Source: a virus. From it: 26,519 bases of DNA. Below the pieces are notes generated by a model. That model ran no database searches. It was not told the origin of the DNA and saw only the letters and a program-made list of their open reading frames with translations. The DNA is taken from the IMG/VR virus record IMGVR_UViG_3300010354_000530, positions 1 to 26,519 of that record; one strand, written 5' to 3'. The translations under genes were made by a program, and so were the position numbers. How positions within the stretch are numbered: the stretch's first letter is position 1; every line of letters begins with the position of its first letter. Of the stretch, positions 92 through 24,566 are shown one piece after another.

Positions 92-712
92 TTAAATAGT
101 TACTAAATTAGTCAGGCTCTGAATCCTCACCGTATAATCTATCTGTATCTGTCTATTCAAAGACTTTTGTACAGGGTGGAAAATCACATGGGTCAATAGT
201 CTTGTTATGACATTTCCATTGCTATCCGTACCGTAATTTGCTAATAATCCCAATTCGTCAAAAACATAACTTGAGTCAGTTTGAGTACTGTTATCAAAAG
301 CAGCCTGTCCAGCTGGTTCACCGTAATCTAGTAAACACTGGACTAAAATATCTGTATATAATCTTCCTGTGGTATGGAAGACTGTCATCTTGTTTCTAGT
401 AGGGTCTAGGTTAAAAACACTAGTATCGTCTACTATCTTAGCGTAGGTTTCATTATAAAGAGCGGCGTTTTGCCCAGTTGTATTGGGCGGCAGATATGTA
501 ATAATACCTGTTTCATCTACGCTAGCACCACCATTTCCAAAAGCCATTTGGTATATTTCACCATAACCACGACTGCTGAGTGTATCTGCTATAGCCTCAC
601 TCATGTTTTCATAGTTGATGGCATTATGTTTATCCACAAAAACTTCTCCATTATTTGGATCATAGATTTTGAGAAATCCCTCAACTTTATATGATAAGGT
701 TATCACAGACAT
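92..712 (-). CDS. Virion structural protein of marine T4-like phages, function unknown (206 aa)
   Basis: This is a 206-residue protein without signal peptide or membrane segment. It opens with a short beta-like unit (residues 9-28, GFLKIYDPNNGEVFVDK) followed by NAINYENMSEAIA. It ends in a block rich in alternating hydrophobics (about 169-206) that includes THVIFHPVQKSLNRQI. I associate this N- and C-terminal signature with small virion proteins encoded next to the baseplate wedge genes in marine myoviruses, but I know of no assigned function. It does not resemble T4 gp8, despite occupying a similar place after the gp6/gp7 positions. The ATG at 712-710 overlaps the stop of the preceding small gene by one base (TAATG) and has a strong Shine-Dalgarno GAGGGG 7 nt upstream, so the start is well supported and translation is probably coupled. 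It likely forms part of the baseplate or fibre attachment; this is inference from context. Confidence 0.85.
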   Translation of the reverse strand: MSVITLSYKVEGFLKIYDPNNGEVFVDKHNAINYENMSEAIADTLSSRGYGEIYQMAFGNGGASVDETGIITYLPPNTTGQNAALYNETYAKIVDDTSVFNLDPTRNKMTVFHTTGRLYTDILVQCLLDYGEPAGQAAFDNSTQTDSSYVFDELGLLANYGTDSNGNVITRLLTHVIFHPVQKSLNRQIQIDYTVRIQSLTNLVTI

Positions 713-864
713 TAATCATCCCCTCGCTTCTGAACTAGCACTTCTTTTGAATTTGGATCAAAAATTTTCACGCTTGAGGAGAAATAAAATCCCCCAACCT
801 CATTGGGTTTGGTAGAAGAGGTCTGATCCTTTTTATCAGTATTATTCGACTTATTTTCGTTCAT
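712..864 (-). CDS. Small 50-aa protein, partial paralogue of the next protein's N-terminus
   Basis: This is a 50-codon frame between the giant gene and the 206-aa gene. Residues 1-22 are polar and low-complexity (Asn, Lys, Thr, Ser, Asp), probably disordered. Residues 24-50 (GGFYFSSSVKIFDPNSKEV, then LVQKRGDD) match residues 6-28 of the next protein: across the 15 aligned positions from VKIFDPN to VQK, nine are identical. An in-frame upstream ATG at 879-877, directly after the giant gene's stop, would add five residues (MINKE). I prefer 864 because the promoter motif at 870-877 overlaps the upstream ATG, but neither start has a strong Shine-Dalgarno. Its stop overlaps the next ATG by one base. 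Small proteins of this kind (polar head, then a GGF..SS..VKI-DP motif) are familiar to me from marine T4-like phages, without known function. It could be a partner or competitor of the 206-aa protein's N-terminal unit. Confidence 0.7.
   Translation of the reverse strand: MNENKSNNTDKKDQTSSTKPNEVGGFYFSSSVKIFDPNSKEVLVQKRGDD
720..725 (-). promoter_or_regulatory. Ribosome binding site of the 206-aa structural gene
   Basis: The minus strand reads GAGGGG, 7 nt before the ATG at 712-710. It lies inside the last codons of the upstream 50-codon gene, whose stop codon shares one base with this ATG. It is the strongest Shine-Dalgarno in the window and fixes the start of the 206-aa protein. Confidence 0.75.
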
Positions 865-869
865 TTCTT

Positions 870-877
870 TATTTATC
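870..877 (-). promoter_or_regulatory. T4-type late promoter motif GATAAATA
   Basis: The minus strand reads GATAAATA directly after the stop codon of the giant gene. With usual T4 late spacing, transcription would begin near 862-866, so this promoter would mainly serve the 206-aa gene and the genes beyond it. It would make the 50-codon gene nearly leaderless if translated from this transcript. It lies in one of the few non-coding stretches and matches the octamers at 84-91 and 24066-24073. Confidence 0.5.
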
Positions 878-879
878 AT

Positions 880-3800
880 TTAGGTTACATCCTGATATAA
901 GAATTCAGCAGGGGTTGTTGTACTAATCTGCAATGGATCTCCATCAACCGTGTTATATACATACGAGTTCCAAACCATATTATAATCTAGTTCTGCAAGC
1001 ATATTATTAGACAATCTGCTATAAACCTCTGAATAAATTGGAATGTATGGTTGAATTCCAGTAGCATTGAATCCACGCTGTAATCCTGACAGTCTGTTGT
1101 TCACTAAATCTACTGTTTCGAACTTAATTTGTTCTCCATTTATGTAGATTATTTTACCTTCCAATGTTGTAACAGTCAGTGAATCACCGGGCTGTATATA
1201 TGATCCGGCAGTAATTTTTACTAACGGAGACAATGCTTCTACAACAATTTCATATGCACTTGTTGGTATTAATCCTAATCTTGCAGGGTCGTTATTGTAT
1301 ATTGTAACGTTAGAAATTAGGTTCTTGTCTGCTGCCAAACCAATTGTGTAAATTCCATTTACTGCGGCCGGCGTAGTCACAGACTGAACGCTAACGTCTG
1401 TAAGTCTGGTTACGTCATCCACTTCAATGTACTCATCAAGTTCATATAATGGGGCAGTTAACCATGTTCTTGCTAAAGTATTGGCTCTATAAACTACCGG
1501 TTCATTTCTTTGATTTACTATTAACTGATATACTTCTTCATCTGGTGTTGAGTTTGGTACCATACTGGTAATAATAACTTCATCACCCGGTACAATAGTT
1601 GTCAATATACTCAAGTTATTGTAACTATTTAAATATAGTTTGCTTGACGGTACACGATATCCATTTACAGTTACCCACAAGCGATCTACGTTGTACTGCT
1701 CCCATTGAGATACGTTAACTGTATTTGCAGGAGTGTCATTAGTTAAAACAAACGTGTCACCACCTCTTGTTTCAGAAATTGTGAACAATGTTAGACCAAC
1801 TTTTTCTTTCACATAATATGTTCTTCCTGCAATAATGTTACCCATTATTGGATCATCTATATCTATTCCTGGAGAGGTAAAGATTACAGGAGTATCTACA
1901 ACTAATTCTGAATTAGATGCTACTGAAATTCTATTTGTAGTAGCAAAAGTTTCTGTCGCAGTTGTTGTAGTTATAATGAACAAACCATCTCTCCAAATGT
2001 ATCCACCACCCGTGTAAGTAGATACATCTGTTACTGGATAATTTGTAGCAGTTGGTCCAGGATTGTATGCTTGCAGATACAAATCAACTATCTGTGTCGT
2101 AACAATTTTAACGTAATATATATTATTGTTCAACTGTGTACTACCTTGAACACCGTCAATTCTAACCAATGTATTTTCTGTTAAATTGTGTGGTACTCCA
2201 GTTGTAACTCTTACTGCAGGAGTTCCACCAACTATACAAATTACATTTCCTGTATCGTTTGTTAATGTTACTACGTTTCCGTTTTCGTCTGCAATGACCA
2301 CTGATCCAGCACTAAAGTATTTTACGAAATATATTAAACCAGTCGTATTAAGTGTGCCAAATGCAGTGCCCTTAAACTGTATTGTTTGTCCTACAACAAA
2401 GTTTAGTGTAGAAGTTACTGTGATATCATAGTAATCCGCAGTACCCGTTCCAGTACCTGCACCTGTAGCAACAAACGTCTCACCTACAGTATTACTTGCG
2501 GCACCTATCAACGTGAAGTCAGTGGTTCCTATAGTTGCAATAACATAAGGTCTACCTATTACAAATGCTCCTGCACTTACAGTTGTGATATTTGTTGCAG
2601 TTGCATTAGTAGTTGCTAATGCCGGTGTAATACTATTGTTAATATTTGTAATATCTGCAACAGTCAATCCATTAACAGTAGCAATCATTGAACCTGTATC
2701 GTCTGTCAATGTTAATGCTGTTCCTGACAATTGATCACTTATAACAAACTGTGTACTATTCCATATCTCAGTGATAAAGTATGTTGTGCCTGCAACAATA
2801 CCATCTAGAGTTGGGGCTGTAAATACGATTGAATCACCTACATTTAACCCGGTCGTATCATATCCGGGTGCGCATGTTAACCAATTAAGTTCTTCATCAA
2901 ATGCAGTAGTATCATAACCTACGAAGGCAGTACCTGTACCGGTTCCTGCACCGGTTGCTATAAATGATAATCCTGGAGTATTACTTGCTGCACCGATAAG
3001 AGTAAAGTCTGTAGTACCTACGGTGTCAATTACATATTCGTATCCAATATCAAAATCACCTGCATTTATTACCGCATCAAACGGGAACTCACTGTGATTA
3101 GTACTTTCTACAACAATTTGTACGAACGCTGAACCAGGAGTTCCTGTAATACCATATTGTGAATTAAAGTATTGACGATCAGTTGAATTGTATGTGGTTA
3201 CCGCAACAGTGCTTCCATTTGGTGGAGGACTATCAAATAATATTGTATTAGTAACGCTACTAATTGTATACAATGCCTGTGTAATTCTTAATCCATTAAT
3301 TTCTACAATTGCATTATATGGATTATCTTCACCCACATAATTGTTTAGTGCAAATGAAGATGTAGAACCATCACCAGTAAACAACTGAACTTCAGGTATA
3401 GTGAATGCATATTGATCAGGTGTTGTTTCCCCAAACACACTGTATACTAGATAGTCTACAGAATTATCATATTGGGCCGCTAATACCATCTTAGCAGAAA
3501 CACCATTGGGTTGTATACCAAATGCAAAATCATTTGTTACAAATGATGCACCACCTGTTGCGTTTGTTAATGGAATAACTGAGCCGCCTGGTGTTGCAGA
3601 TACCGTAAATTCATTACTATCTATAATAGCACTAATATAATAAACTGTTTGCGGAATTAATACACCACCAAACATCGTGTTGCTAAACACTATAGGAGTA
3701 TTAACAATTAATCCGCCCGTTGAGTTTGTAGTTATAGCATTATTTGAAGATTTGGTTCTAGTTACTGCATTCGTTTTACCTAGTACTAATTTAGTACCAT

Positions 3801-6800
3801 TATGATAAACAGCAGGGTCGGTCCAAACACTACCTGTACCAGTTTGTATAATTGCAGTCATTGACCCGGTTGCAGTAGTCAATATTAATGTTGGTCCAGC
3901 CGTACCTGTTATTGCATTATAACTTGCAGAAACGGTGATACTACTTGTTACAGTACTGATTGACTTAACATAATATATGGTATCTTCTATAACATTACCA
4001 AACGTTACACCTTGGAAGTATATAGGAGAATTAACTGTGAACTGAGTTACATCGTCACAAACGATGGTATTATTAGTACCGTTTGTTGCAACTGCTGTCA
4101 CTTCAATTGAATGTGAACCCGGTCTTATTACACCGCTGCCTTGGAAATATAACTCTGAGTAATTACAGTTTAAATATATTTCGTCAAATCCAGTCACTGT
4201 GTTGTTTCTGATAGGATCAGTTTTTGTATTTGCCTTAACTAACTGGTCTCCGTTACCAACTTCGTACACATCTACTCTTAATCTATCTGTTGATGGACTC
4301 AAATAGTTCAAAGGAGTGTTTAATGTTAACGTTTCATTTATATAATCTACAGTGTAATCAAGTGTTTCATACAATGAAGTGCTTAAACCTGTTGCCCCGT
4401 CTATCACAAAGCATGCTATTTGAGCAGGACTTAACACGCTTCCTGTCCAATCATATACCGTTTGTGATGCTGACGTTGGAGTAAATTCATATGAGACTAC
4501 GTTATAACCACTATGTCCGTATGTAGTTATTGGCCAGTTTGTTCCAGGACGAGTAGTTACAGTCATTGTTAATTCATCCGTTACAACACCTGGTACTAAT
4601 TCTTCTGGACCGTAACCTGCTTGGAATGGGTCACCTACTACGTCATATACAGTGGGTGCTACTACAAACAATGAAGAACTTTCCCACGTTACTCCGTTGT
4701 CTATACTCTTTAGGATTGTGTTATTGTCACCGACCACAACCCAAGTATTTCCTGAAACATAGTTTAGACCATTCAAATTCTCAACTGTTCCTGAAGTTCT
4801 TTCAGTCCAAGTTACACCGTCTGGGCTAGTCGTGATTCTACCCAAATCGCCTACTGCCATAAATTGTGAGTTAGCCCAAAGAACATCACGTAATGTTTCT
4901 GTTCTTGGGTACTTGTACATAATTGTTTGTGCTGGTATAGAACCTGCACCTGACAAGTCGATTGGAGGATTACCAATTGCATCTGTAATTTGAATCTGTG
5001 TAGAAGATATTACAGTATGTACATAGTATGTTGTACCGCTACTCAAAACATCGAATGAATCTGTAAATCTAACAGCATCATTTACTGCTAGTCCGCTTAT
5101 TGAACTAATACCCAATACGTCAGTAGAACCATTGATACCTGTTACTTGTGTTTCAGTTACGCCAATCCAATCTGTTCCGTTTTGTGAATAGTAAATTATA
5201 CCATCTTCACCGACAATCAATGCAATAGAACTGTTAGAAGTAACTCCATACATTCCCTTCTTAGTTGCAGAAGGAAGTTGAGTCCATGCTATTCCATCAG
5301 TTGTTTGAACAATAATGTTAGTGTCAACTATCTGTGTCAATCCAGTTGAATAGTCATAACGCTGACCTTTACCTACAGCAATGAAACCATCAAATATAGT
5401 TACTGGACCTGATAACAATGTTATAGGTGCAACACCATATAATGTATTATTCAATACAGTATTAAAGTTGAAACTTTCTCTCCAAACGTAAGTATCATCA
5501 CTGCGTACAATACTATCACCTACTGCCATGTAATACCCGTTCTTGTATGCAACAGAATATAGTGACAATGCCGCTATATTAATTGAAGTCATATCATACG
5601 GTATATCATCATATGGAGTAGAACCATATGGAGTGAAGTACCCGTTAGTTGTCCAAGTAATTCCGTCATTACTTCTATAGATAGGTGTTGCACTATTTGT
5701 AGAAGTAATAATATAATATCCACCTGCATAAATGATATCGGTTGCGCCGATACCAACATTTGCTAATTTAGCAATTGCCCAACTATCGCCAGTTGCGCTT
5801 CCCAATACAGCCGAATATGTTGGTATGTTTGCTGCGGCTAAATAATGAGAGCCGTTCCACAATACTGATGTAATGTCAACTTCAGTAGGATAGAATTCTT
5901 GTCCTTGTAATACAGTGTCTAATGTGAACTGCTCTGCCGGAGCAAAAGGATTTCCTAAGTATGTTGAATTTGGATACGTGATACCAGTGTACAGTTGAGT
6001 TAAATCAACACCTGGCATATTATCAGTTGGCTGATAGTAACCAATTGTTCTATCTAATGCATTCAATCTACGATCAGAAGGATCTAATAATTCCCACTTA
6101 CCAAATATAAATTCATCATCATTATTACTGATCACACAGATATAAACTCTGTTATTAAATTTCACAATGCTTTGATTGAAATAGAATGGTTCAGGTAACA
6201 ATGCAAAACTGCCTGCCTTAGCCATCGTCATAGAACCACTTGCATTGCTTGCAAAATTAATTACGCTTCCACCTGGATTGGTTGTTAATCTTACAGTGGT
6301 TGATGTTGGTTTATCATAAATGTAATATGTTTGTCCTAAAGAAATTTCTGCTGAGAATATTGTTCCTGTAAAGACTACTGGATCATTGAGATTAAACTCT
6401 GCTGAACTTGTAACAGTAACTCTATCATTTGATGCTGTAACTGCTGTAGCAGTAGTTGTTGTAAACCCTACGAATGGGAAATCGATTCCACTTACAGGAA
6501 CTTGCATCAATGGATCAGAATAAACTTCAAATTGATTTGGTGTTATTACTTTCAAGTAATATCTTTCTTTTGCACCAGGAACCGTACCTGAGCAAATTAC
6601 ATCAGTAATTCTACCAGCAACGCCAGGTCCGCCGCTTGTATCAATCGTGTTAACTATCATAGTTAAATCATTGGCAGGACTTGTTCCACCTAATTGATCA
6701 CCTGTAATTACAAGTTGGTTATCTACTGCAAAACCATAGCCTCCGTTTGTTATTAATACTCTATATCCACCGAGTATGTAACTTACGTCAAATATTGGCA

Positions 6801-9800
6801 GTGTTGGTGATACTTCACTTGAACTTGGGAACTGTACTAAATTGAAGTCTGTATTAGTATAGCCCAATGTTGTGCCACTTAACTTGATATATGGATCTCC
6901 AGTACCGGTCATTAATCCATTAGATGTTGTTAATGTTTTAACTGGTCCACCGTCTGTTGCAGATATCTTAAATTTAGTACCACCAACACTTGGATGTAAT
7001 CCATAGGCTGTACCTGTACCGCTACCGACACCAGTTGCAGTAAATGTAGTACCAGGATTATTATCCGCTGCTCCAATAGCAACGAAATTAGTTGTACCCG
7101 GAACTTCAATAGTATATGATTTACCAACAACAAAACTGCCAGCATCTGTTACAAAATATCTTACATAATATTCATCGCTAATAACGATTCCACCTAATGA
7201 TTGACCAGTGAATATAATTGGCATTCCAACATATAGGTTGTCTGTAGAATCGCAATTTAAAATGTTATAAGAACCGTCAGTATTATAGACCTCTGTTTCT
7301 AATGCAGGGAAATATGTACCCGGATTCATTGGATCTTCTAATCCAGTATACTCTTCTATGTAATAAGTTACACCTGCTGTCAATAACGAGCCAGCTGGGG
7401 GTGTCTCTACTTGAATAGGCATATCGACATAAAAATTGTCAACGCCGCCTGTTGAAGTTTTGACTCCAATCTTATTGTTTTCTAAGGTCGCTGTTAATGT
7501 TCTTTCAATTAAATTAGTAATTTCACTACCTGGAACATCTATGTCTGCATATTGACCTGATGTTTCATAGAGTATAAATTGCTGACCATTAACTTGACCA
7601 GGACTTACTGGCAACGAAACGTTTACAGTCATTGAACCTGTAGCAGTAGTTAAAGGTAGTGTGTTAATTTGACTTGTTAATGTACATCCGGTATTACTTG
7701 CGGCAGATACAGTTGTTAGGCTAAATATTGTTCCGTTAATAGTAGCAGATACTTTAATTTGAGTAGCACTTACAATTTCTGCAACATAATATGTTGTACC
7801 TGATACTAGTCCACCAAATGATGTAACATCGGACCCTGCAATTTGCATTTGATTAAATATTACCGGTTCGTTAACGGTTAAGTTATCATTACTTTCAATT
7901 GTTATTACATCGGTACCTGTTGTAGTTGCTACAACACTTAGCATTAACGGATCGTTTGATTCAGACATAGTAAATGTCTGATTGTCAACAACTGTAGTCA
8001 CATAATAAACTTGATTTTGTGTAACACCACCGTATGTTGTTCCTGTAAAGAACAATGGCAGTCCAACGTAGAACCCGACAGTTCCTCCAGTACCTATATC
8101 ACTTAACGGTACTGTTACTCTATTAGTTGCTGCCTGTGTTGCAGTCGCAGTTAAGATACCTGGGTAGTTTACTGTCAATACCGCCGTATCAACAACTTGT
8201 CCAACATATGCGAAGGCTCCTGGAGCAGAAGGGATGACAACAGTGCTAAAGCCAGTTAATTGTGGTCCGTTTTCAGTAGCGGATACAGTAAAGTCTGTGA
8301 TATTAACTATACTATGAACATAGTAAGTTGTCCCTGTAACTAATGGGCTAGGAATTTGTCCACTAAATTTAATTGGCATTCCAACATAGAAGCCAATAGT
8401 TGAACCTGAACTATTTGGATCACCAGCGCCATCATCATAAGGCTTTAGTCTAATTAAACTTCCTGTACTAACTGTTCTATCCACAGTGCGTACAAAACTT
8501 GACCAAGTTAAATCTCTATCATTTACAACACTGATAATTTCAAACGCTACACCCTGTGCTGATGCAAGGATATCTTCAATCGGTGGTTGAGTTGAATATA
8601 ACTGTACCGCAGAACTAGAAACTTTCTCGCTATTAGAATAACTTCCTGCAAAGAAAGCACCATAATACTGACCTGCTTCCCAATCTTGAACTTGTGAGGT
8701 GTACGTTGTTCTATCAAAACGTAGTTTGATATTGTTTTCACGCACAGGACTTGCAGAACTGATAGCACTAGCCTTAGCACCTAAATTCAATGTGTGGTCA
8801 TTACCACTACCGTCATTGTAAATTTGAATCCTATCTCTATCGTTTAATGCATCCCCGTAACTTGAATATAATCCAATTACTGATGTTGGATCACTTTCTA
8901 ATAAGTTTACATAGTACCATTGTCTGTCTACTAGACCACCAATAGCACTACCTATTTCACCTTTTCTATACTGTATCAAGTCTCCGGTACGTAAGTTAGG
9001 AGCATATAGTCTAATAGTATTGGTTAATGAGTTTACGTCTGCACTTGTAAAGATAATTTGTATTGCCGGGTCGATTCTGATTTCAGGTAATACTGGATAT
9101 CCTTGACCTGGATCAATTACATTAATTTGTAATACAGAATCCAATGTCATAACTGCTTCTAGTACGGCTGCTCTTAATGGGGCGCCGTACACGGCTTCAT
9201 CAACATATGCTATAACTCTAGGAGGGTCAATGTATCCTCTACCACCATTCAGTATAATTACAGGAGGTAAATCAATTAATATTTTTTCACCCGGTATATG
9301 ATCAGATATAGGGGTATTGTTGTATCCTCTTATGATACCACTTAGTGCGTTAGTTGCTCTATCTACATATGAGTAACTAATTAATTCTTCTCCAATTCTT
9401 ATAACACCATTGATTGGGAAACCCTGTGCGTTATCAACAAGTACAACTCTTGTACCCAATGTCAGGTAAGAAGTCAATATAGTGATTTCAAATTCTGTTT
9501 GACCACCTATACTTACGCCTCTATTTTGGAACCATTGATTATATGGTTGAGTTTGCCATATTGGACTAGTTGGTAGATATTGACTATCTAATGATACGTT
9601 ACTCTGTACCAATTCAGGAGTAATATATTGTTGCAATGATGCATTATATGTTGCAGGAAGATCAAAGTCAGTGATGTTACCTTCAAATACTTCTTCTCCT
9701 GTGTACTTGAATACAAATTCTTTAACCACAACGTGATATGGTTTTACCTCATTGATATAACCTGCCAAGAAATCTTGATTATCGCTTTGGAATACTTCAA

Positions 9801-12800
9801 TAGGACGTAGTTCACGAATCTTGTGTGACACATCAACCAATGAAGTTTTATTTAACCAAGGTAGATAATTTTGCGATTCATCAGTTTCACTTTGAATATA
9901 TTCAAATAACAGCACTAATGATTTGTTTCTGAATATTAACAATTCATCAGTATAAATTTGTTCGTTTAATGCACGAATAATATAACGTGTTTCTTCGCTT
10001 GGGAACTCATCATATGCGCTGGTATCAAAGAAGTTGTCGCCGAAGCCTGTCTTGCCGGCTGCGTAATCCCATAGATACAATTTGAATTGTATTGTACCTT
10101 GTTGTAATCCAATTCGTGACCATACACCGTCACCGTCGTAACGATATACTTCAAACTTACCATCTCCGTTAGTATTAACAGTAACAATTGTATTTACGGG
10201 TACTGTTAATGTTGCTAGGTCTGCATAAATTTGAACTTGCAATACCGATTTAGTATTATTATCGTATCCAGTTGCCCACCAATTGACATACTCCCAGTAG
10301 TCTGTAGTATTAAAGAATTCTCCTTCTGCAAACAAGAAACTTGCATTTCTTCTTGTTTCAGAAATTGGGAACTGTGCTAATACTTCATTAGCATAAGTTA
10401 GATAATTCTTTAATGCTTCAAATCTGTCAAAGAAGAAACTTTGACGAGGTCTTGCTAATACACCTGATTGCACTGCCTTTGGCAACCATGGATTAGGTAC
10501 TACTTCACCGGTTTCGTCTACCCCGGATAAACTGTCTAGCATTCTATCATACAATGACTCAGGTCTATTATTTCCTGTAGGAGTATTGCCATGTATATTT
10601 GCATCAAATCCATGTGTTAATAATTCGTTTGGCAATCCAGGTAAGAAGTCATCAGCATAATTTGCTCTTATTAATGTATACTCATTATGTCCTGTATCGT
10701 CGCCTCTACCATTTGAATATCCGATATGCAATACTGAGTCATTTGCGTTATAATATTGATCACAATTGTATATTGCATACACGTTCTGTAACAAAGGTGC
10801 AAAGAAACCAATGCCTGAATTTTTTGGATTAGTGATGTATGTTTCAATAATAGAGTCAGATAACGTTTTACCTTCTTTTCTAAAGATTAAATTACTATTT
10901 CTTACCCAAAAGAAATACAATGGAGTAACTACATCACTTGCGCTTAATATATTTTGTGTTGAGAATAGTGTTATGTCAAACGGTGTACCCGGGCCTGTAT
11001 ACTCACTTGGTGGAACATTACTTGATACCCAACTGTATACAGCAACGTCACTACCTGGGAAAACAGTTCCCCAATATTTTGCATTATAATTTGCATCATT
11101 GTTTTGATGATAATTTACAAAGCGTACATTTGTTGTGTTAAACCAAAGTTGACCAACTTGTTTTGATCCCCATGTCATACCTGGCTGATCTGCGTCAGTA
11201 CTATTATATCTTGCTGGATCGTTATTTGATACCACATCGATATTTTCTCTACATGCACCTAATATCTTGCCTTGCAGTGGGTCAATGTAATCTAAATTAA
11301 CAAGTGTGTTATTAGTTTCTGCACTAAACAATTGTATGTTTTTAATTTTATTAATATCTACAATTGGAGAAGATTCTCTATATACAGACCAATCAGATTC
11401 ACCTGTAGGATTAATATATATTACTACTTGACCATCATAGACTTCAGGTAAAAAGTTTGGAGAACCTATTAATACTCTGTTATTAGAAAACGATAGTGCT
11501 TGACCATATAGCGGATTAAATCCATATTCTAAATTCAAGTTATTAACACTTTGTGCATATACATATTGACCAGGATCATTTAGACTTTCATTATAGTTAG
11601 CCAAATAATCAAACATATATACTGCGCCACAATTTGGACTTGTATCTACAGACTGTGTAGCATTATTATCAAATATTGTATCGTTCTCTAATGTTTCGTC
11701 ATCACTGAAATCAAAACGTGTGCCAGCAAAACGTATGCCGACCGGTGCGCTAATTACAACTGAATTTAATTCATTGAATTTAATATTATAACCAAATTGA
11801 GTTGGGCCAACAGCATGAGGAGATCTAATTACTTGTGTTTGAGTATATACATTAATTCCTAACTCAGACAATGTGTTTGAGTTTAATGCTGATAGCAATA
11901 GTTTTTCATTAGGCTGTGCCAAGTCAGTATTAATTACCTGAATAATAAGTTTATTGTCGTCGGTTGCACCCGCTGTTATGTTAGTAATCTTTTCTTGAAT
12001 GATTGCATTGGCTGCTACTGTAGCATTACCCGGTGGTATTGTAACGCTGTAACCATTAATTAATATTGTTCTATTAGTAGTTACATTTACTTCGTTAGTA
12101 CCTATAACTACACCATATTTACTTCCACCATTTGTATAACGGTATACGCCGCCTTCTTCGTTTTCATCTGATAAATCAAACGGTGCACCTATTAATAGGT
12201 CTGTACCTGCGTTATTTACTGCTACGCTGTATCCATATTGAACACCTACTCTAGGATCGTTTCCTGTAGTAAATGATTGAATTAATGTGAACTTGTCTCC
12301 ACTAATATTAATAATATCACCTGCCATTAATGGAGCAGTATAATAGAAACTTGAACCTATTACACTATAGTTATTATCTGCAATTAATGTTCCGTTAACA
12401 GTTACATATAATGGTTCAAGTTGTAAATATCCGTTAATTGTTAGACCTGCTTCAGGTGCTAATGTTACTGAAGTAGAACTTGAACGTGATTCTTTGACTG
12501 TAATTCTAGTTGAACTTACTACAGTATTAATGTAATAAACTTTATTAGCCTGCAAGCCAGTGCTACCAAAATTAGAACCACTGAATACTATAGGATAATT
12601 TTCATACCCTGTAAAGTCTACGTTAACTCCAATTTGATTTGAAGCATATACTTGTGTTGTTGCAGAATTTAATGTAGTGCCTGTCCAAGCCAAATTAAAA
12701 GTTTGAAGTCCCGAAGTATTAAGTTGTGCTTCAAATGTTTGTATGCTTCTGCTATACGCATAAGCCTTACCCCAATTTAATATTGAACCGCTATAGTCAA

Positions 12801-15800
12801 CATATGGCGCGCCAATTACGACTGTATCACCATTGTAATCCGTTGATATTGAATGACCGAAATTATCTCCGCTAGACAAACCTAGAACAGAACCATCAAT
12901 AATATTGACTAATTCATAATTTACTTGTCTTGCTCTACCTGTTTCTCCAACTGTTCCGGTGCCTGAAGCGATGAACACTTCGCCTATTTGATTATAGGTT
13001 GTAGTTGGTGTGGTGCTTATTGTTGCAAAATCCGTATCACCTACATTAGTAATTGCGTAAGTTTTACCTACAGTTAAGTAACCAGCATCAACTTCAAAAC
13101 TTTGGCGTCTGTAAACATAAACCTGATTGTTATCAACATCTGAAACGTATAGCCAATTACCATCGCTTGATGCTGATATCGAACTGCCCCAATTAGTTAC
13201 ACCACCTGGTGCACTGATTGCAGTTTGATAAGTTATAATGTCATCTGATAATATACTATCGTTAACATAATAAATGTAAACTTTAGGAGTACCGCTAGTT
13301 GGTTCAGAAACAAATATTGTGTTATTGACAATTAATACTTGTGAGCCAAAACTTGTACCTTGAGTTAATGTTTGAATATTGTCATATTCATTGGTCAATC
13401 CATTCAATACATAGCGATATACTTTTCCTAACCCCGCATCTGCGAATAGATAACCTATTCTAGGAGTATATGCTACTGCACTACCAAAAGTACTAGAAGA
13501 AGCCTTAGTAACTTCTCTATCATATTGGTAGTTAATTCCCTTACGATATACAGCCCAGTTACCGTCACTGTTTTCATCTACCCATACAGTATTCTTAATA
13601 AATTCACTGTCTAACAATGGTAAATTGTTTATGTCTGATGGAGTCGCAACACGCTGAGATTGGAATCGTACTACAATACCTTCCCCATTGATTAGACCGT
13701 CATTAGTTAAGAATGTAAGATTAACTAAAATTTCAAATAAATTAACTACCTCAACAACAAAATAATATCCATCAACGTTAGAGTTGAAGTTTATTATAGC
13801 GATCGGATCTAATTTTGTTAGATTATGCGGCTCAGCAAAAGTTACTGTTGAAGTACCATTTGGATTACTTCTTACACTTACTACTCTTCCGTTCTGTACT
13901 GGAGTAAGTACTTGCCATCTTCCTAAATAGTCTGCTAACCAAACATAATTTCTAACATAGAAATCTTGTATAGGGACAATTTGTCCGTTTTTATTAACTG
14001 CATTTGGTAAACCTGAGTAGAAATATGAACTCATCTTTACGTCATTAAAGTTCACGTAGCCTGCGTCAGGATATAATTTAGCAGGTGCATCTTTAGGAAT
14101 AGTTGCTAATATATTTGGATTCTGTACAGGCACACTATAATTAAAGAGATTGTATACTGGAATCTCCTGTTGCACTTCTGCTACTGAAGGACCATTTATT
14201 AAACTTACTAACGATGGGTTAGCAGTCATGTACTCTTGGTTAACTTTAAATTCGATAAAGTTATTATTTGTAATACTACCAAACTGTCCTGACTTGATTG
14301 CCCAATTTTCGTATACTTCGTAGTCAATACCACCTTGTGGTAAATTAGCGCCACGGAACGCTTCTACAGCATTTCGTGTGCCTTTGTTCTTAATTAAATT
14401 TTTATAAACATTAATTTGCGTAATGTCTGTGAGGTCTGCCAATGCTAGATAATCACGTGGGCGATATCCAATCAAACTGAAACTTAGTAAGTCTGCGTCT
14501 TGCTCAAGGTTAGCCCTATTTATATCATAGTACAACGTACTTTCATAACTACGTGTGCTTGAATTTGGTAACAACCCTTTTTGAATTTCGTTATACTCTG
14601 TTTCTTTCCACTCAGTTTCATTAAATGTGTTTGAAGGTTGAACTATCTTAAGCGCAGTCCAATATTTGTTCTTGTATAATACTATAGAACCTTTAGTATA
14701 TTTGATTTCTCTTGACCATTCTTTTACGTTATCTTGGTTGAGAATAAAGCCTGAAGCCGTTACTGTGCCATTCCATTCTGCTGTTTTTGTTCCGCGAACA
14801 GTAATACGTGTTTGACGTAAGCCAGTAATTAAGTTATAGATAACATCATTAAACAATGTTACGTTATCAAAAACAATACCATGTTCAAAGTTGCTCATGT
14901 TGAATTGACCGTACGCAATGGTATCACCTTGACTTAATGCCTTAACACTAAACATATTACCATCACGGAATACAGCCATATCAACTGCTTGTATTGGATA
15001 TAAGTTTTGATTTAATACAAAGTTAGTTTGTTGAACTGTTAATGGTTGAACTATACTATTTGGTTGGTCAATCTTTAGTAAGTTAGCGCCTGGGTTCAAT
15101 GTTAATACACTGCCTTCACCCCAACCGGTTTGTGCCCAGTATAAGAATTCAGCAATCATTTGACCCCAGTTAATTTCTAAACCATATTCTACTTGGTCAA
15201 AGATAAAGCCTTTACTATTCAACCATGCTCCATAACTTGCCAAAAACACTGACAGGTCTTGAACATTATAGAACATAGTACCATATGGTACTAATATTTC
15301 ATCACTACTATAATCTCTTGTAATTTTTACACTTGAGTCATCAACCTTAATGTTATCATAGTTACCATTGTTTAATGGAGTCAGTGTCCTAAAATAAGCC
15401 ATTGACTGTGAGTTACCATATACTGTAAACCCCAGACCGTCTATTTGAATAATTATAGAACTATAAACATTTTTATCGAATGGTTGGTTGTCGTATAATA
15501 ATACTTGATAACTTTCGTCAGGGATTAACAATGATGAATTTCTACTATTAGGTGTTCCCTTTTCAACATAGAACTTGAGTAATGTCTTATCGCTAAATCC
15601 GGCTAGTCTATAAACTAATCTTACGTCAACGTTAGACAATAGTTCTTTAATATTTTGTGTAGCAGTTATGCCCAACTGTTTTTCATAATCAACAATCCAG
15701 TTGATATAAGAAGTTTTAGGTGTTCCTGTACCATATATTTCAATGTTATTAATAACCAAATGGCTTCTATCATTAACAAGATATTGGTTAAACTCTGAAC

Positions 15801-18800
15801 TATACTTATAATTGTCTATATCTACACCTAAGTTAAAGAACTTAGCGGGTTTAGTCAATGCTAGTATTCGCATTAAGTCAAATGGCCATGTACTGCTTCT
15901 ACGATAACTAAATTCTACCGGTGCATCGTCGCCTATGTCCCATTCATTTTGGAAAGTTTGTGCATTATAGTTTCCTACAATTGCATCTAATGGCGATAAC
16001 AAGTTACCATTACTATCTACTGGTAATACTTTTAATAAGTTTGGTCTTACTTCAGCAGGGATAACATAAGGATCACCGTTATTCCAATTGATACCTTGTT
16101 CTAAATCTCCCCACAATATTAAGTTGTCACTTGTGTACGGAGCAGGACCATATCTATCTGTCCACCAAGTTGGTTGATTTACAAAACCCAACAACTCCCA
16201 CGGTGTTTGATTAGGAGTGCTTGTACCAAAATAGTATTCGTAGATACCTCTCCAATATCCTTGTTCTATAGGCTCTCTGTTAAGTTTATTGCCTGAATTT
16301 CTATAATTGAATGTAAATGGATTATTCTTATCGTAGAATTGTCTCTTGTAATTCAATCTGTTTTGACCAATCCAATTTAAGAAATTCTTTTGATAAATTT
16401 CTAAGTACTCTTCATATGTATAATCGCTGTCTCTAAAGAAACCCGGAGTAATTTCATATGCTTGAATAGGTATAGGATTACTTATCTTAAGGTTATTATA
16501 AATTCTTGTTTCAAACTCTAATAGAGCCTGATCTCTATAATCAATTAATATACCTAAAGTAGGGTCATAATCACCATAGAGTTTAGTATATGACCCGTCG
16601 TGTCCTTTAATAAAATATGTAGGTTGTGTGTAATCACTGTCTAGTACTACACCTGGGATATATGCTGGATACAATCCTAATTTAGTAGGTGTATTTGGAA
16701 TATATGAACCGTATGTCTGATTATATTCTTTTACGGTAATCTGATCCGCAGGTTGTAATGGAATAATAACAGTTAATGATTTGCTATCTGTGCTAACTGT
16801 ATATTCTTCACCTATAATCAATTGTCTTTCAACAACAGTACCTTCAATAACTCTTGACAAATAAACCAATAGTCCATAATAGTTAGCAGTTGAGAAATCA
16901 TAAATTTTGCTTAATGGATAAACGCTAGTGTCTAGGTCATTATTGAAAGTATAGGTATTAGTTATGTATGGCGCTTTACTTGGCAACATGTCAGACCAAA
17001 AGAAGGCTTGACTTTCGCTCTTAGCCGCAGATAACTGATCCAATGCATCATCTAATATGTATGACGGTGTAAATCGTTGTGGATAATCAGTGCTATTAAC
17101 AGTATCTACTAATAACGTCTTGAACTTAATGTATTCTCTGCTATTGAATAATAGCGCATCAAATAAATTATGATTTTGTTTGCGCAAGAATGCACTAGGC
17201 AATACTAAGGCAGCACTGTTCTGAATTATCTTTGTACCGTATGGTACAAGATTTCCTAAATCTCTATAGTTGTTAGAACCAAACATTGGTCCTTGGAAGT
17301 TAGGATTATTTGCGTATATAGTTTGATAGTGTGCGCGGATATCTCCAATATTTGCCGTAGTCAAATCTTGGTTCAATGGATTGTTATTTAAATTAATTGG
17401 TATAGTATAGTAAGATTTTAGACTTACTTGATCACTCAACAATAATATTTGAATTACAGTATCTTCATTGATAATATTATTCAATGTTACAGTAGTGCTG
17501 TCAGGACCAACTGATACCGTATATGAATCTGATGTTTGTAAAACATTATTAATATAAACTTGTATTGTTGGCCACTCACTTTGAGTAGCATCTAGTTTTG
17601 CAACATCACAAATATAATTTGCAGGAGGATTAGATACAAAATAATCAAAACTAAAGACTTGATATTGTACGCTAGGACCAACAGCAGTTTGCCATCCCAA
17701 TTCACGTTGATATTCATCACGTGTTCCGTAGTTCAATACATAACCTGTATTAACTTTTTCTGTTATTGGATCGGTACCGCTAACATAATCAAATGTGTCT
17801 GTGTTCAATGACACATCAAATGATATGTCACCCACGTTGTCGATTGAACTATAGCGAACTGGGAAACCTAATATAGTATCATCTAGTCCGGCCCCTATGC
17901 CATAAGCAAATAATTTTGAACCAATAAATGTGGTTCCTCTATAAACTTCAGTATCGCCAAAACTTATATTATTACTATCTACAACGTCAAACAACGGTGG
18001 TTGATTTACGTCAGTTTTCTGTTGTCCTCTTAACCAATTGATTCCGTCATAGTAATATGTGTCACCTTGATAGGTGAATCCTCTTAATATTACTGTTTGA
18101 TCTTTAGGTAACACTTCTCCGTCCGGTGCCTCAGTCAATGTAATAACTGGTAACAAACTTGAAGTTACTGTTGAGAAATTAACAATATAAATTTTATTCT
18201 TTACGTTGATGTTAGTATCTGCGGCAAACACAATTCGTGCCCCATCAAATACTTTATAGTTGTCATTTTGTTGATCATCTGCAACAAACTGTACATTGTT
18301 TATTGTTGCGAATGTAATATTATCAATCCAACTAATTGTCAATGTTGTAATACCGCTTGATTCAGTGATATCTGTAATTTGCGCATCAGATGGTAACACG
18401 CTTGGATAAGTTGTTGTTGAGGTACTAAAACGTAGGTCAGTTATATACTGTCCTATTTGGAAAGTTCCAATGATATCACTTGTTGCTATTGTTGCAGTAG
18501 TAGACGTACCACTAACAACTCCTGTCAGCGTTGCTGTATAATCTGTATATGTCTCTACATCAGGATAAAAACCAGTTTGTCCTGCTACCTGAGAAAGAGC
18601 ATCAGTTGATTTGAAATCGATAAAGTCTATTGCACTTTTACCTACTGTTCCTGCATCAAACAACTTTAAGTTAGGATAAAACTCAATAATAGGACGTTTT
18701 GCTTTAGCATCAGCGGTTGCATAAACGTTTACTATTTCTGGGTTGTTATTATATTCTGCGGTAGAATTGATAACATCAATATGGAACCAACGATTACTAC

Positions 18801-20676: not shown

Positions 20677-23600
20677 TTATCTTATTTGTAATTCAGCCGG
20701 TGTTAGTGCCGGTACAACTAATACATCTTCTGCTGTGGCAGCGTTTACGAAAATTTCATATGGCATGCACTTAATTTCATATAAGTCTCCAAAAGGTTTA
20801 GTAGGATCATTTGGTACCAACACTGCTGAACTAATCAACTCTCCGCATTCGGTGTGTAGGAATGCACTTAGTTCACTAAAGAAAAATGTGTCTCCAAAAT
20901 TCCAATTATTGATATTAAAATATTTGTTCATTGCAGTAAGTACAGCACTTCTAACTTCACTATCGCTAGCATTAGTGTTACTTGCCTTAATCACTTTCAC
21001 AGTTCCTCTTAATGAAGAACTTGCTTTAGCACCAAACAAAGGCTTGAACACTACACTATTTAATATAACCGAATCGCTCAACATTTTGAAATCATTGACT
21101 TGACCATATTCTTGGTTCAACTCATTAATTGTTGGTCTATCTGGCTCTACTACAGTGTTAGTTGAATCTTGTATCCAATTTTGATATGCTGTGTAATAAC
21201 TTTGTGTTACAACATATAAGTCAATAATATTTGTTGTAGTTGGATCAATACGTGTTGTATTATTACTATTATGACGATATTGGAAACTTACACCTTGACG
21301 ACCAGGTTTCACACTATATTGTGGTTGGGGTGTCAATATATAAAATGGTGTGTTTATTGTATTGTCTTGTAGTGATCTATAAAATACATTATCACTATAT
21401 GCATAGAATAATTGCCCTTCTGGATAATCATATTTTACAACTTCGATCTGTGTCTTATTTGCATAGATATAAACTACATCGGTTGATGGGACAATTTGTT
21501 CTCTGGATAAATTAATTGCATCTTCTAATAGTTCAAAGAAAACATATATACCAATATTAGCACCACCGTTAACATATCCAGTAACTTCGTTAAAAAAGTC
21601 AGGATTTAAGATTAGTGTTCTATTATTAACGTCTGTGGCAGCAACTTCAACTTGGAAGTCATTGATATACCCATCACTTTCTACAGTTTGTCCTAAAACA
21701 TTTACTTTGATATCTCTGCCAAAAGGATAACTTGTATTTGGTTGATTGTTTGTAGACAACACACTTATAAAATCTTGTAATATTTTTCCTGAAAAAGGAT
21801 CGTAAACTAATTCGTTAGGAGATAATGTAAATCTAGTATCAGATACACTACCAAAGTAATATGTTAATGAACGATAACTTACTGTGTAACGATTAGCGCC
21901 AACGCTGGTAAACTTTACAAAATATCCTGCATCTGTAAATGGATTAATACTCCAACGTTCTTGATTTATAGGAAGTGAGTTATTGAAAACTAACGTAAAG
22001 TCTTGTGCTAACTCCATTCTAACTACGCATTCATCGATAACTTCTTGTGACAATGAATTATCAAACACTGGAATAATCTGACTTAAAATTGCACCGTTAG
22101 GAACATAGCCATTTAATGTTACAGGTCCTGTACCGTTAGGGAACGCACCGTCACCGTTATTATAACCATCACCAACAACATTTAATACTGTAGACCAAAT
22201 ATAAGTTTGGTTTGTTGGACCAGGAATACCTGAGACTAATCTATTATTGTTGTCAAAATAATAACCCGTTGGTGCTGTGAATTTACATAGCGCACCAGTA
22301 GTCACGTACTTTGCATTTTTATTTGAGTATATACCTAATGGAATAGGTACGTTTTGTGAACCGCTTACATTGTAAAAGTATCCAGACTCACTATTAGCAT
22401 CTACTGTGCTTGTCTGCCAATATACTACCCCGTCCCCTGATGCCGTATTTACGTTATATCTTGGGTAATTTTGTATATAATACTGTGTTGCTTTGTTGCT
22501 GTCTAATGCGTTAGCCAATGATGATGTTAAGAACGCACGAATATCATTGATATTAGTAATAAACAATGTTAAGTAACTATCTGTATTATTTTGATATAGT
22601 GCCCCGTCACTGCCAAAAACATTAGTACTACTGTATTTTCCAGTTGGATCAAGTAAATCTAAGTTCTTGCTAACACCTATACTGCTACGATTTATCGCCT
22701 TACTTTTAATAATAGAACTATAAAGTGTATATGGGAAGTTGTTATAATCTTCACCATTCACCATACGGTTCTGTGTATAGTAACGAGTAGGCGCACGTTG
22801 CTTAATTTCCTGTACAGGTTCTCTTTGCTGTGCATTTGATACTGCTAATGGTAATTCCAAACCAACCGTTAAGTTTTCTGTTTTACCATTTCTATTAACG
22901 TATGTAAATGTAACAGAAATACCTTGCATTTCACTAGGATCAATAGTATATGTTAGTGCATTACCAGCACGTACATATGCTCTGAATTGTCCTACAGGTA
23001 TTTCACTAAACACACCATCACCAAATACATATGTTACTTGGTCGTTAAAACGTGAGTTTACACTAAAAATCTTTTTAAATGATGTTTCTCTTTGTAGGTA
23101 TGCATCAGCATACACATTGTCAACTTTACGCCATAACAATCTGTCGCCGTTATTGTCATTTAATTGATACAACCAAGTGTCGGTATTATTAATGCCTTGA
23201 ATATCAATGTCTACAGTTTGGTTAGCAATCTGCTGTTCTAATTTAAAATCTGCGGCTTGTAATGACCCTTGTTTAAAGTAAAAGAACCATCCTGTTTCGG
23301 GACTACCATATCCTAATTTATCATTACGATATAATATATTGAATCTTTGACTTGGTGCAGGAGGAATCTCATAGATATAATCCTCATCTACACTAGTTAC
23401 ACTAACCAATTCAAAATTCATGTTTTGTCCGTCAACTGAACTATTGAATGGTACAATCGGCAATGTGCCCTGTGGAATCTGAATTGTATATTCGTTAGTT
23501 GTAATACCTAATAGGTCTGCGGTATTACCTGGTTTACCTACACGCTGGGTATTAATAAGTGTTGCGTTTATAATCGTATTAAACTGTTCTAACCAATTTG

Positions 23601-24048
23601 GGTTAGCAGGATCATTCCAAAGTATAGGAATGTTACTTAAATTAATACCATTTATGTCTGTGATATTTTGTGAGGTTTGTATACTTGTAACTTTAAGATA
23701 ACCTTGACCTGCAAGATTACGTTTTGGAGTATAACTTACTAAGTCTGCAAGTTTGATAACGCTGTCTCTACGTTCAGCAGTATCAATAAAGTTCTCACGG
23801 GCATTCAAGTCATTTCTAAAGGCCAAACCTTGACCCATAAACGCCATAACGTCTAGTAGGGCGATAAATTCTGAACTTTCAATGTAGTCATTAAAGGTCT
23901 CAGGATAGTAAAGACGTAGATAATCTATGAAACTTTTACGTAAAGTCTCATAGTCATAACTTCTAAAATCGGCTTCGCGGAAGGTTTGATAGATGGCCTT
24001 CCAATCATTTACGCCGAACAATCCTGATTGTCTTGAACTTGTAGCCAT
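20677..24048 (-). CDS. gp6: Baseplate wedge protein gp6 (1123 aa)
   Basis: gp6 dimers join the six wedges into the ring of a T4-type baseplate and carry the link to the fibre-bearing parts. The N-terminus is diagnostic: KAIYQTFREADFRSYDYETL (17-36), DYIESSEFIALLDVMAFMGQ (54-73) and LNARENFIDTAERRDSVIKL (81-100), ending in YTPKRN. The mid-protein segment RAPTRYYTQNRMVNGEDYNN (about 417-436) is the conserved block shared with baseplate J-like proteins. The C-terminal 150 residues contain FKPLFGAKASSSLRGTVKVI and TAMNKYFNINNWNFGDTFFF. It is well over the roughly 660 residues of T4 gp6; the extra length appears as beta-rich sequence in the middle and second half. The ATG at 24048 has an AAGAGA Shine-Dalgarno 6 nt upstream and a GATAAATA promoter at 24066-24073. 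It lies 46 nt after gp25 and 6 nt before the giant gene, the order seen in marine T4-like phages. Confidence 0.92.
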   Translation of the reverse strand: MATSSRQSGLFGVNDWKAIYQTFREADFRSYDYETLRKSFIDYLRLYYPETFNDYIESSEFIALLDVMAFMGQGLAFRNDLNARENFIDTAERRDSVIKLADLVSYTPKRNLAGQGYLKVTSIQTSQNITDINGINLSNIPILWNDPANPNWLEQFNTIINATLINTQRVGKPGNTADLLGITTNEYTIQIPQGTLPIVPFNSSVDGQNMNFELVSVTSVDEDYIYEIPPAPSQRFNILYRNDKLGYGSPETGWFFYFKQGSLQAADFKLEQQIANQTVDIDIQGINNTDTWLYQLNDNNGDRLLWRKVDNVYADAYLQRETSFKKIFSVNSRFNDQVTYVFGDGVFSEIPVGQFRAYVRAGNALTYTIDPSEMQGISVTFTYVNRNGKTENLTVGLELPLAVSNAQQREPVQEIKQRAPTRYYTQNRMVNGEDYNNFPYTLYSSIIKSKAINRSSIGVSKNLDLLDPTGKYSSTNVFGSDGALYQNNTDSYLTLFITNINDIRAFLTSSLANALDSNKATQYYIQNYPRYNVNTASGDGVVYWQTSTVDANSESGYFYNVSGSQNVPIPLGIYSNKNAKYVTTGALCKFTAPTGYYFDNNNRLVSGIPGPTNQTYIWSTVLNVVGDGYNNGDGAFPNGTGPVTLNGYVPNGAILSQIIPVFDNSLSQEVIDECVVRMELAQDFTLVFNNSLPINQERWSINPFTDAGYFVKFTSVGANRYTVSYRSLTYYFGSVSDTRFTLSPNELVYDPFSGKILQDFISVLSTNNQPNTSYPFGRDIKVNVLGQTVESDGYINDFQVEVAATDVNNRTLILNPDFFNEVTGYVNGGANIGIYVFFELLEDAINLSREQIVPSTDVVYIYANKTQIEVVKYDYPEGQLFYAYSDNVFYRSLQDNTINTPFYILTPQPQYSVKPGRQGVSFQYRHNSNNTTRIDPTTTNIIDLYVVTQSYYTAYQNWIQDSTNTVVEPDRPTINELNQEYGQVNDFKMLSDSVILNSVVFKPLFGAKASSSLRGTVKVIKASNTNASDSEVRSAVLTAMNKYFNINNWNFGDTFFFSELSAFLHTECGELISSAVLVPNDPTKPFGDLYEIKCMPYEIFVNAATAEDVLVVPALTPAELQIR

Positions 24049-24094: not shown

Positions 24095-24553
24095 TTATTG
24101 TTGTAGAGAGGCCGTGTTAGTTTTATTATCAAAAAACAGGCTTAATGTTGTGGCACTATTGAAGGGATTTACCGCTAATTCTACTTCTAATAGAATTCCA
24201 TTTTCTTGTGGAAAGGCTTTTACGTAGTTTAATTCTATTCTAGGGTCTAAACTAGCAACTCTTCGTATTTCATTTTCTAATTGAAACTGCACATCTGCGG
24301 TGTTTGGCTCAAAAACAAATGACCAAAGAGTAGTTCCGTAGCCCGGTTGTCCAACTTTTTGTCCTTGGTGTATGTTAAGTGCGTTAACAAAGTCTTGTAT
24401 TACTAGTTGACTATCAGTTAACTTATACTTTTTTCCAAATACATATGGACGGGTTATGCTGGCAGATCCATAGTCACGGCCCAAATTATTTATAGGGTTA
24501 GTGATTCTAGGTTTATCTGCGTTGATTGTACTGAAACCGATATAGTTTGCCAT
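24095..24553 (-). CDS. gp25: Baseplate wedge / sheath initiator gp25 (152 aa)
   Basis: gp25 sits at the inner edge of the baseplate and offers the first template strand for polymerising the contractile sheath; homologues occur in all contractile tails (GPW/gp25 family, lysozyme-like in name only). Residues 64-77 (GQKVGQPGYGTTLW) correspond to the family's 'RP-F-PEFG..L' region. Residues 82-108 (EPNTADVQFQLENEIRRVAS, then LDPRIEL) carry the family's signature E-P-R motif, here D-P-R at 103-105. The end reads LEVELAVNPFNS. T4 gp25 is 132 residues, so this version has about 20 more, mostly N-terminal. The gene follows the Ala-rich protein by 8 nt. No clear Shine-Dalgarno precedes the ATG at 24553, so translation may be coupled to the upstream gene. 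Confidence 0.9.
   Translation of the reverse strand: MANYIGFSTINADKPRITNPINNLGRDYGSASITRPYVFGKKYKLTDSQLVIQDFVNALNIHQGQKVGQPGYGTTLWSFVFEPNTADVQFQLENEIRRVASLDPRIELNYVKAFPQENGILLEVELAVNPFNSATTLSLFFDNKTNTASLQQ
24487..24494 (-). promoter_or_regulatory. TATAAATA inside gp25, possible late promoter
   Basis: A perfect T4 late octamer lies on the minus strand within the first 22 codons of gp25 (codons for P-I-N-N). It could supply additional gp6 transcript, but it is intragenic and may be chance, because GATAAATA at 24066-24073 already serves gp6. Confidence 0.25.
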
Positions 24554-24558
24554 AAAAT

Positions 24559-24566
24559 TATTTATG
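24559..24566 (-). promoter_or_regulatory. CATAAATA at the gp25 junction, weak late promoter candidate
   Basis: The octamer overlaps the stop codon of the Ala-rich gene and ends 5 nt before the gp25 ATG. Transcription from it would start at or just inside the gp25 start codon, giving a leaderless message at best, so it is doubtful as the gp25 promoter. Confidence 0.25.

Follow-up and report, generated by a model that had tools for sequence, protein, structure and literature searches.

The window analysed here, a 26,519-nt stretch of DNA (IMG/VR virus record IMGVR_UViG_3300010354_000530, positions 1 to 26,519), is the baseplate operon of an uncultured large (jumbo) myophage, lying on the minus strand. 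It encodes a giant baseplate-associated virion protein, in which two families of small modules, D (GTTDFT type) and Y (GTTYYV type), are found repeatedly. We propose, with a probability of roughly 0.8, that D and Y are small domains that virion proteins have repeatedly taken up, in frame, at hairpin turns on their surface. At the level of sequence, a given site is filled in some relatives and cleanly empty in others, the inserts correspond to whole modules, some modules lie inside other modules, and D occurs at multiple sites and in multiple proteins. In the structural models, both host propellers retain the usual seven-bladed fold; the inserts are placed either between neighbouring antiparallel strands, in C-D and A-B hairpins, or in a D-A loop.

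According to iterated profiles, the D domain, of 47 amino acids (aa), is present in four copies in the giant protein, and the Y domain, of about 63 aa, gives 16 matches corresponding to about 15 modules, as two matches are the halves of one Y split by a D. A first-pass annotation, made from the letters alone, had named one D and two Y modules between the blades of two putative propellers. All three are recovered by the profiles: D at aa 2528-2580 (independent E-value, i-E, 8e-14), Y at aa 2689-2742 (i-E 9e-14) and Y at aa 5187-5242 (i-E 5e-16), with giant-protein residues numbered as (20670-nt)/3+1 from the window positions (Table 1). They are nevertheless only part of the set, as there are many further D and Y copies and a third insert, in blade 5 of the first propeller. 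Because training of the profiles used these very sequences, including the copies in the window, the E-values are not independent and we relied on a control: 103 matches of the D profile and 435 of the Y profile are found in 48 giant proteins, against 0 and 0 in reversed sequences and 0 and 0 in locally shuffled ones.

D is an uncatalogued domain, in that no Pfam, PHROG or NCBIfam model covers it in sequence searches. Its 43 members match no PHROGs family at E 0.01; in Pfam, searched up to E 0.1, the best value is 0.005 (3 members, YjbE) and no curated model emerges, and the NCBIfam best is only 0.024. There is no immunoglobulin (Ig) model among the Pfam or NCBIfam matches of D (0/43 members), and a PDB sequence search gives best E-values of 0.29 for D and 0.059 for Y. 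For Y, in a comparison with E1_FCCH and the endosialidase beta-barrel, one of 47 members reaches E 1.1e-5 to PF16190 and three of 47 have a best of 0.023 to PF12195; over the whole segment the PF16190 score is 19.3, below the cut-off of 29.5. A scan of viral contigs with one Y module yields 15 loci. A tblastn search of phages with D returns three records only, our guess being that the low-complexity filter masks the Gly/Thr tail of D. Cyanophage S-TIM54, a cultured phage, has a virion protein that matches D at 59% identity over 39 aa. The motif strings retrieve no phage papers, as judged by title, which says little since such strings are seldom printed.

Both putative propellers of the first-pass annotation are borne out by AlphaFold2 (AF2) models and by their PDB matches. 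Propeller 1 is integrin-alpha-like, with an above-gathering match to PF14312 (E 9.3e-9, 35.8 bits, gathering 23). Its model, built from an alignment of the window with related loci other than L017 and L029, has a mean predicted local distance difference test score (pLDDT) of 86.3 and a predicted template modelling score (pTM) of 0.89. The best PDB match (VIA) is the integrin alpha-L headpiece 5e6s_C (Z 36.4, root-mean-square deviation 2.5 A, 330/716 residues aligned), and a BFVD search, taken as support only, returns viral proteins, among them FG-GAP and integrin-like ones (best match A0A6J5L8L4_3, E 1.6e-25). D is ordered in this model, with a block pLDDT of about 78-92. Propeller 2, modelled from the window and related loci at aa 4922-5346 (pLDDT 87.0, pTM 0.86), has virginiamycin B lyase 2z2o_C as best PDB match (VIA; Z 30.0, 2.4 A, 271/425 residues aligned). 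Its S-x-D-x-G-x-T-W motif is matched strictly twice (aa 5000 and 5282) and is otherwise degenerate, with a PSII_BNR match of E 0.26, below the cut-off; Asp-box entries are not among the structural matches listed for this model, which excludes nothing. Since both seven-bladed propellers align with known structures over these residues without the modules, the modules are not integral blades.

The placement of the inserts between blades, as first proposed, holds for propeller 2, where Y occupies the D-A loop between blades 5 and 6, but not for propeller 1. There, strand mapping puts the inserts within blades 3 and 4, between strands C and D: they lie between FG-GAP sequence motifs, yet structurally inside blades. 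The blade-4 Y is furthermore not directly in the propeller, being enclosed in a small host domain (LAWTP...LYVTVNGTL). The third insert, in the C-D hairpin of blade 5, is found in all the alignment rows listed and is accordingly considered old; by eye, this insert (ILINGY..., window 11851-12117) resembles a Flagellin hook IN motif. Propeller 1, too, is an addition relative to four named phages. Alignments with RaK2, PA5oct, SCTP-2 and Vibrio phage 2.275.O cover the sequence on either side of it and leave 84, 277, 386 and 263 residues, respectively, between anchors that are 810, 895, 828 and 933 residues apart in the window protein, and the propeller profile finds nothing between the anchors in any of the four.

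Relatives of the giant protein were collected with its aa 3101-3500, which gives 47 related loci (designated L numbers, the window being W) of 44-94% identity with long unbroken giant open reading frames (ORFs). From these 48 giants, 32 representatives were taken, and 14 near-identical loci were dropped from the propeller-1 alignment; owing to contig ends, L007 and L027 are unscored for propeller 1 (n=30), and L011, L021 and L028 for propeller 2 (n=29). The blade-3 hairpin contains one D in 18 representatives, a tandem of two D in 2 (L028, L031), nested inserts in 2 (a D inside D in L034, a segment of about 430 aa inside D in L029) and an unrelated module of about 80 aa in 5 (L037, L038, L039, L040, L042), while it is empty in 3 (L023, L033, L035). 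The blade-4 Y is present in 21, unclear in 1 and missing, with an empty site, in 8 (L022/L023, L024, L028, L030/L031, L038, L039, L040, L042). As for the Asp-box loop, it carries Y in 12, Y with D in 3 and nothing in 10 (L023, L024, L031, L033, L035, L037, L038, L039, L040, L042), and the whole of propeller 2 is missing in the remaining 4 (L017, L019, L027, L036). The idea that all homologues might have the same modules in the same places, with no empty sites, is thus false, by the alignments (3/30, 8/30 and 10/29 empty) as well as by a flank test. Under this stricter flank test fewer sites are called empty, 3 for blade 4 and 6 for the Asp-box loop, the rest relying on the alignments. A further insert family, made of 'WTWNIS' repeats and Thr/Ser-rich linkers, is seen in blade 2 of L017 and L018 (L017:7871-8074, giant aa 2437-2504) and is absent in L021 at 90% identity; similar repeats occur in a 355-aa insert of L019 (giant aa 4811-5165) without counterpart in L017.

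When the flank test is applied to the 62 full D copies of the 32 representatives, 17 D site groups are obtained; the homologous site is empty in one or more relatives for 15 of these groups, and in at least five relatives for 12. Site W 4509 is occupied in 3 (the window clade, W, L001 and L002) and empty in 21 representatives, site L036 4762 is occupied in 1 and empty in 23, and site L020 3005 is occupied in 1 and empty in 20. The corresponding Y counts merge tandem arrays, and no numbers of Y sites were taken from them. A tree was built by a quick method from 1,021 columns of flanking sequence, and we rooted it on L037-L042; on it, the states change 6 times for blade 3, 4 times for blade 4, 5 times for the Asp-box site and 2 times for the presence of propeller 2. 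Such a tree alone cannot separate gain from loss; gains are favoured by the single-clade occupancy of most D sites.

Modules are also gained or lost as units between near relatives. L013 and L006 differ by 58 aa with one D, L020 and L010 by two D, L034 and L032 by a 57-aa D inside D, and L035 and L033 by 154 aa corresponding to D plus Y. The Y module split by D in the window is not alone, as other Y modules in L036 (4762) and L034 (4552) carry D at the same YYV hairpin turn. In L029, the segment that interrupts the blade-3 D gives beta-propeller matches (PQQ_2 E 2.6e-10, SBBP 2.2e-4), and this locus would therefore contain a propeller within a module within a propeller, an arrangement found in no second contig. 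The suggestion that the insertion points are selected receives moderate backing from these data, since the blade-3 hairpin takes D, tandem D or an unrelated module according to the clade, and three Y modules are split at the same YYV turn.

D is not restricted to the giant protein. Searching with a 54-aa D query, at least 440 of the 599 viral stretches listed are confirmed, 80 of which were kept, against 4 of 586 in cellular genome assemblies. These 84 loci fall into 36 groups by flanking sequence, the giant-like group accounting for 17 loci, and the D profile is found in the frame read in 82 of them (L080 and L136 being without). Among ten D carriers scanned are a tail sheath, a gpJ-like central fibre, a head-tail adaptor, a tail spike, virion structural and internal virion proteins, and one carrier, L094, without PHROG match. 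D is likewise present in 7 of 8 whole virus records, with three matches outside the giant. Two of these three are in a virion-like protein of about 455 aa in L048 and L050 (L048:566-1933, L050:1575-2957), which could be a decoration protein; it combines Y-like repeats with D, is near a sheath-like ORF in both phages and has a phrog_11196 match in L048. The tail sheath of the L027 phage (PF17482 E 1.5e-11, phrog_10581) carries D, and the sheath of the L014 phage aligns to residue 451 and resumes at residue 505 with 9 nt in between, i.e., an empty D site. The sheaths L109 and L124 have D at a second place, each of the two sheath sites being empty in the sheath that carries D at the other (L109/L124 versus L049). 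These occurrences, and the lineage-specific sites described above, back the earlier view of the modules as mobile protein domains. The L027 sheath (locus L049:2744-6511 being named alongside) also has a PF07196 match (E 0.0033), and the blade-5 insert may be another shared module.

D is maintained as a protein domain. At the residues conserved at 77-100% in 95 D copies, all synonymous codons are used, and this saturation is not a search effect because the retrieval patterns were degenerate; it argues for selection on a folded D domain. A self-mobile DNA element was accordingly rejected, as there is no nucleotide-level conservation at the synonymous sites of conserved residues. Recent copying within one genome was rejected as the main route too, the only near-identical pair being a local tandem in L032 and nearest neighbours lying elsewhere: in 13 of the 17 D site groups (leaving out the blade-3 group, two N-terminal groups and L024:4646), the nearest neighbour of a D copy is never in its own genome or clade (0/13). 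By this comparison, D may be acquired from a wide pool.

Several observations weigh against repeated insertion or limit its pace. The closest relatives, W, L001 and L002 (89-91% identity), differ by no gain or loss of at least 20 aa, which indicates that turnover is slow. Near-identical DNA between copies is seen only in the L032 tandem pair (93.7% over 111 nt), other same-genome pairs are far more diverged, and the data contain no example of a recent jump. In the comparison that gave the reciprocal sheath sites, some 'empty' calls are open to doubt, since the flank holds another D (L106:1666), and 35/119 is to be read as an upper figure. The 80 viral carriers, finally, were chosen for their similarity to a single D, so that copies close to the consensus are more apt to come out as nearest neighbours.

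Part of the pattern could instead reflect ancient modules, carried by the common ancestor and deleted in some lineages. The blade-3 and blade-4 modules are present in most representatives, so that few losses (as in L023) fit, and propeller 2 was probably lost twice (the 2 tree changes). This explanation is unlikely as a general one, because at most D sites a single small clade carries the module and the site is empty wherever else it can be resolved, as at W 4509, L036 4762 and L020 3005, and losses alone would need many parallel exact deletions. Another reading is a DNA-level mobile element or a translational bypass sequence read in frame by chance: short in-frame conserved inserts in unrelated genes can look alike, but besides the saturated third codon positions, the best-matching D copies in unrelated contexts share 74-88% DNA identity, and AF2 gives an ordered D, all of which makes such an element very improbable. 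We give equally little credence to assembly chimeras or alignment artefacts. The relatives are, named phages excepted, all metagenome contigs, and the nested propeller of L029 is in a single one; against this, contigs from separate metagenomes agree in state (L022 with L023; L028 with L030/L031), most loci have an unbroken ORF of at least 5,000 aa, and the junctions align residue by residue.

Repeated insertion into hairpin turns could work as follows. The modules would fold on their own, and their DNA would come and go through rare recombination events, illegitimate or microhomology-based, between phages that infect the same cell. Only insertions at turns would be kept, as the insert ends are there side by side and the host fold is left intact. 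The modules might then be retained for weak, multivalent binding to cell surfaces or extracellular glycans, by analogy with what is proposed for Ig-like domains of phages; this step is the weakest and a guess. For this step only, the inserts could alternatively be inert spacers or fold stabilisers tolerated by drift, which we regard as a real possibility, if somewhat short of even odds: turnover is slow, no ligand site is recognisable and D is present in adaptor and sheath, but the strong conservation of D in unrelated proteins points to some selected role, possibly folding alone.

Table 1. Features of the 26,519-nt window (positions in nt).
Feature	Position	Strand	Basis or remark
Giant baseplate-associated virion protein, gp7 position	880..20670	-	6,596 aa; phrog_10938 E 8.5e-217
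Propeller 1, integrin-alpha-like (FG-GAP), seven-bladed, with inserts	11365..13512 (aa 2387-3102)	-	PF14312, AF2, VIA
D in C-D hairpin of blade 3	12925..13095; profile match 12931-13089	-	profile, strand mapping
Y inside small domain in C-D hairpin of blade 4	12415..12675; profile match 12445-12606	-	insert ends by eye
Third insert, ILINGY type, C-D hairpin of blade 5	11851..12117	-	DSSP mapping; boundaries approximate, by eye
Y split by D at YYV hairpin turn	6910..7260 (D 7006-7146)	-	only W, L001 and L002 have D here; 21 representatives with an empty site
Propeller 2, Asp-box-type, seven-bladed	4633..5907 (aa 4922-5346)	-	AF2, VIA
Y in D-A loop between Asp-box blades 5 and 6	4912..5157; profile match 4945-5112	-	insert ends by eye
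D module, C-terminal region	2926..3066	-	profile match
D module, C-terminal region	2437..2574	-	profile match; D in W and L002 only, 10 representatives with an empty site
Baseplate wedge gp6-like protein	20677..24048	-	phrog_10646 E 1.3e-257
Baseplate wedge gp25-like protein	24095..24553	-	PF04965 E 6.9e-7, above gathering score
55-aa ORF between giant gene and phrog_11259 gene	712-879		
phrog_11259 protein, downstream of giant gene	92..712	-	E 5.5e-68

In all likelihood the giant is a virion protein that stands at the gp7 position. In Pseudomonas phage PA5oct, a giant ortholog is followed by two small ORFs and then by a gp10-like gene, an order that matches the window, and this PA5oct counterpart is annotated as ESI-MS/MS (electrospray ionisation tandem mass spectrometry). 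In T4, the gene order is gp6-gp7. Downstream of the giant gene, the end of the 55-aa ORF, KIFDPNSKEVLVQKRGD, looks like the beginning of the protein that follows, KIYDPNNGEVFVDKHNA, which might point to a partial duplication. An Ala/Ser/Thr-rich ORF of at least 651 aa (window 24562-26517), open at the contig end, has a G+C content clearly above that of the rest of the window (0.47 at 25-26 kb versus about 0.36).

Inserted domains are known in other propellers. In integrin alpha, the I domain is inserted in the FG-GAP propeller. The window propeller shares the host fold, its best structural matches being integrin alpha headpieces, and carries inserted domains as well, but in the phage protein one propeller takes several inserts; these are tiny, are lodged in C-D hairpins and differ between relatives. 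Asp-box propellers with a lectin-like domain (type 2, Vibrio cholerae sialidase) differ in that the phage inserts are of another family, are in D-A and A-B loops and have empty sites among homologues. Other parallels are the Ig-like phage domains (Big, I-set, FN3), presented in the relevant passages of PMC9022992 as small beta-rich add-ons in several virion protein classes, variable among relatives; these passages also describe one Ig-like domain inserted between strands of the core in YSD1, and call the role of such domains in tail tubes unclear, while mucus binding is suggested in the passage concerned of PMC6867891. D, in contrast, is about 47 aa long, has no Ig-model match, and occupies single hairpin turns, also within other modules and within propeller blades. 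Ongoing domain exchange among phage proteins, including receptor-binding and baseplate ones, is likewise reported in a study of phage mosaicism (Nat Commun 2023, PMC10684548), which deals, in the parts concerned, with ECOD domain-level architectures and whose main text contains none of the words 'nested', 'propeller' and 'sheath'. The modules are not described in the passages of PMC12619734 on the same phage lineage. The kind is thus known, namely promiscuous accessory domains of phage virion proteins, whereas the D family, its hairpin sites and its nesting look new within Pfam, PHROG, NCBIfam, PDB and the literature searched.

As a rule, domain insertion has to be inferred from isolated, ancient events. 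In this protein family, the many pairs of filled and empty versions of one site make the rate, the site preference and the structural rules of insertion directly measurable, and offer an explanation of how giant phage baseplate proteins grow. As an uncatalogued 47-aa domain in many virion proteins, D is of use for annotation, and it might serve protein engineering as an insertion tag that proteins tolerate naturally. More tentatively, and with the odds slightly against it, D could be the founding member of a phage-wide class of 'plug-in' domains, whose two ends would be pre-shaped for one beta-turn. This class would spread over unrelated virion proteins (baseplate, sheath, adaptor, fibre) and phages, form tandems, nest in itself or in other modules and serve as a landing site for whole domains, as in a propeller within D within a propeller. 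If true, it would be a route by which jumbo-phage proteins reach thousands of residues.

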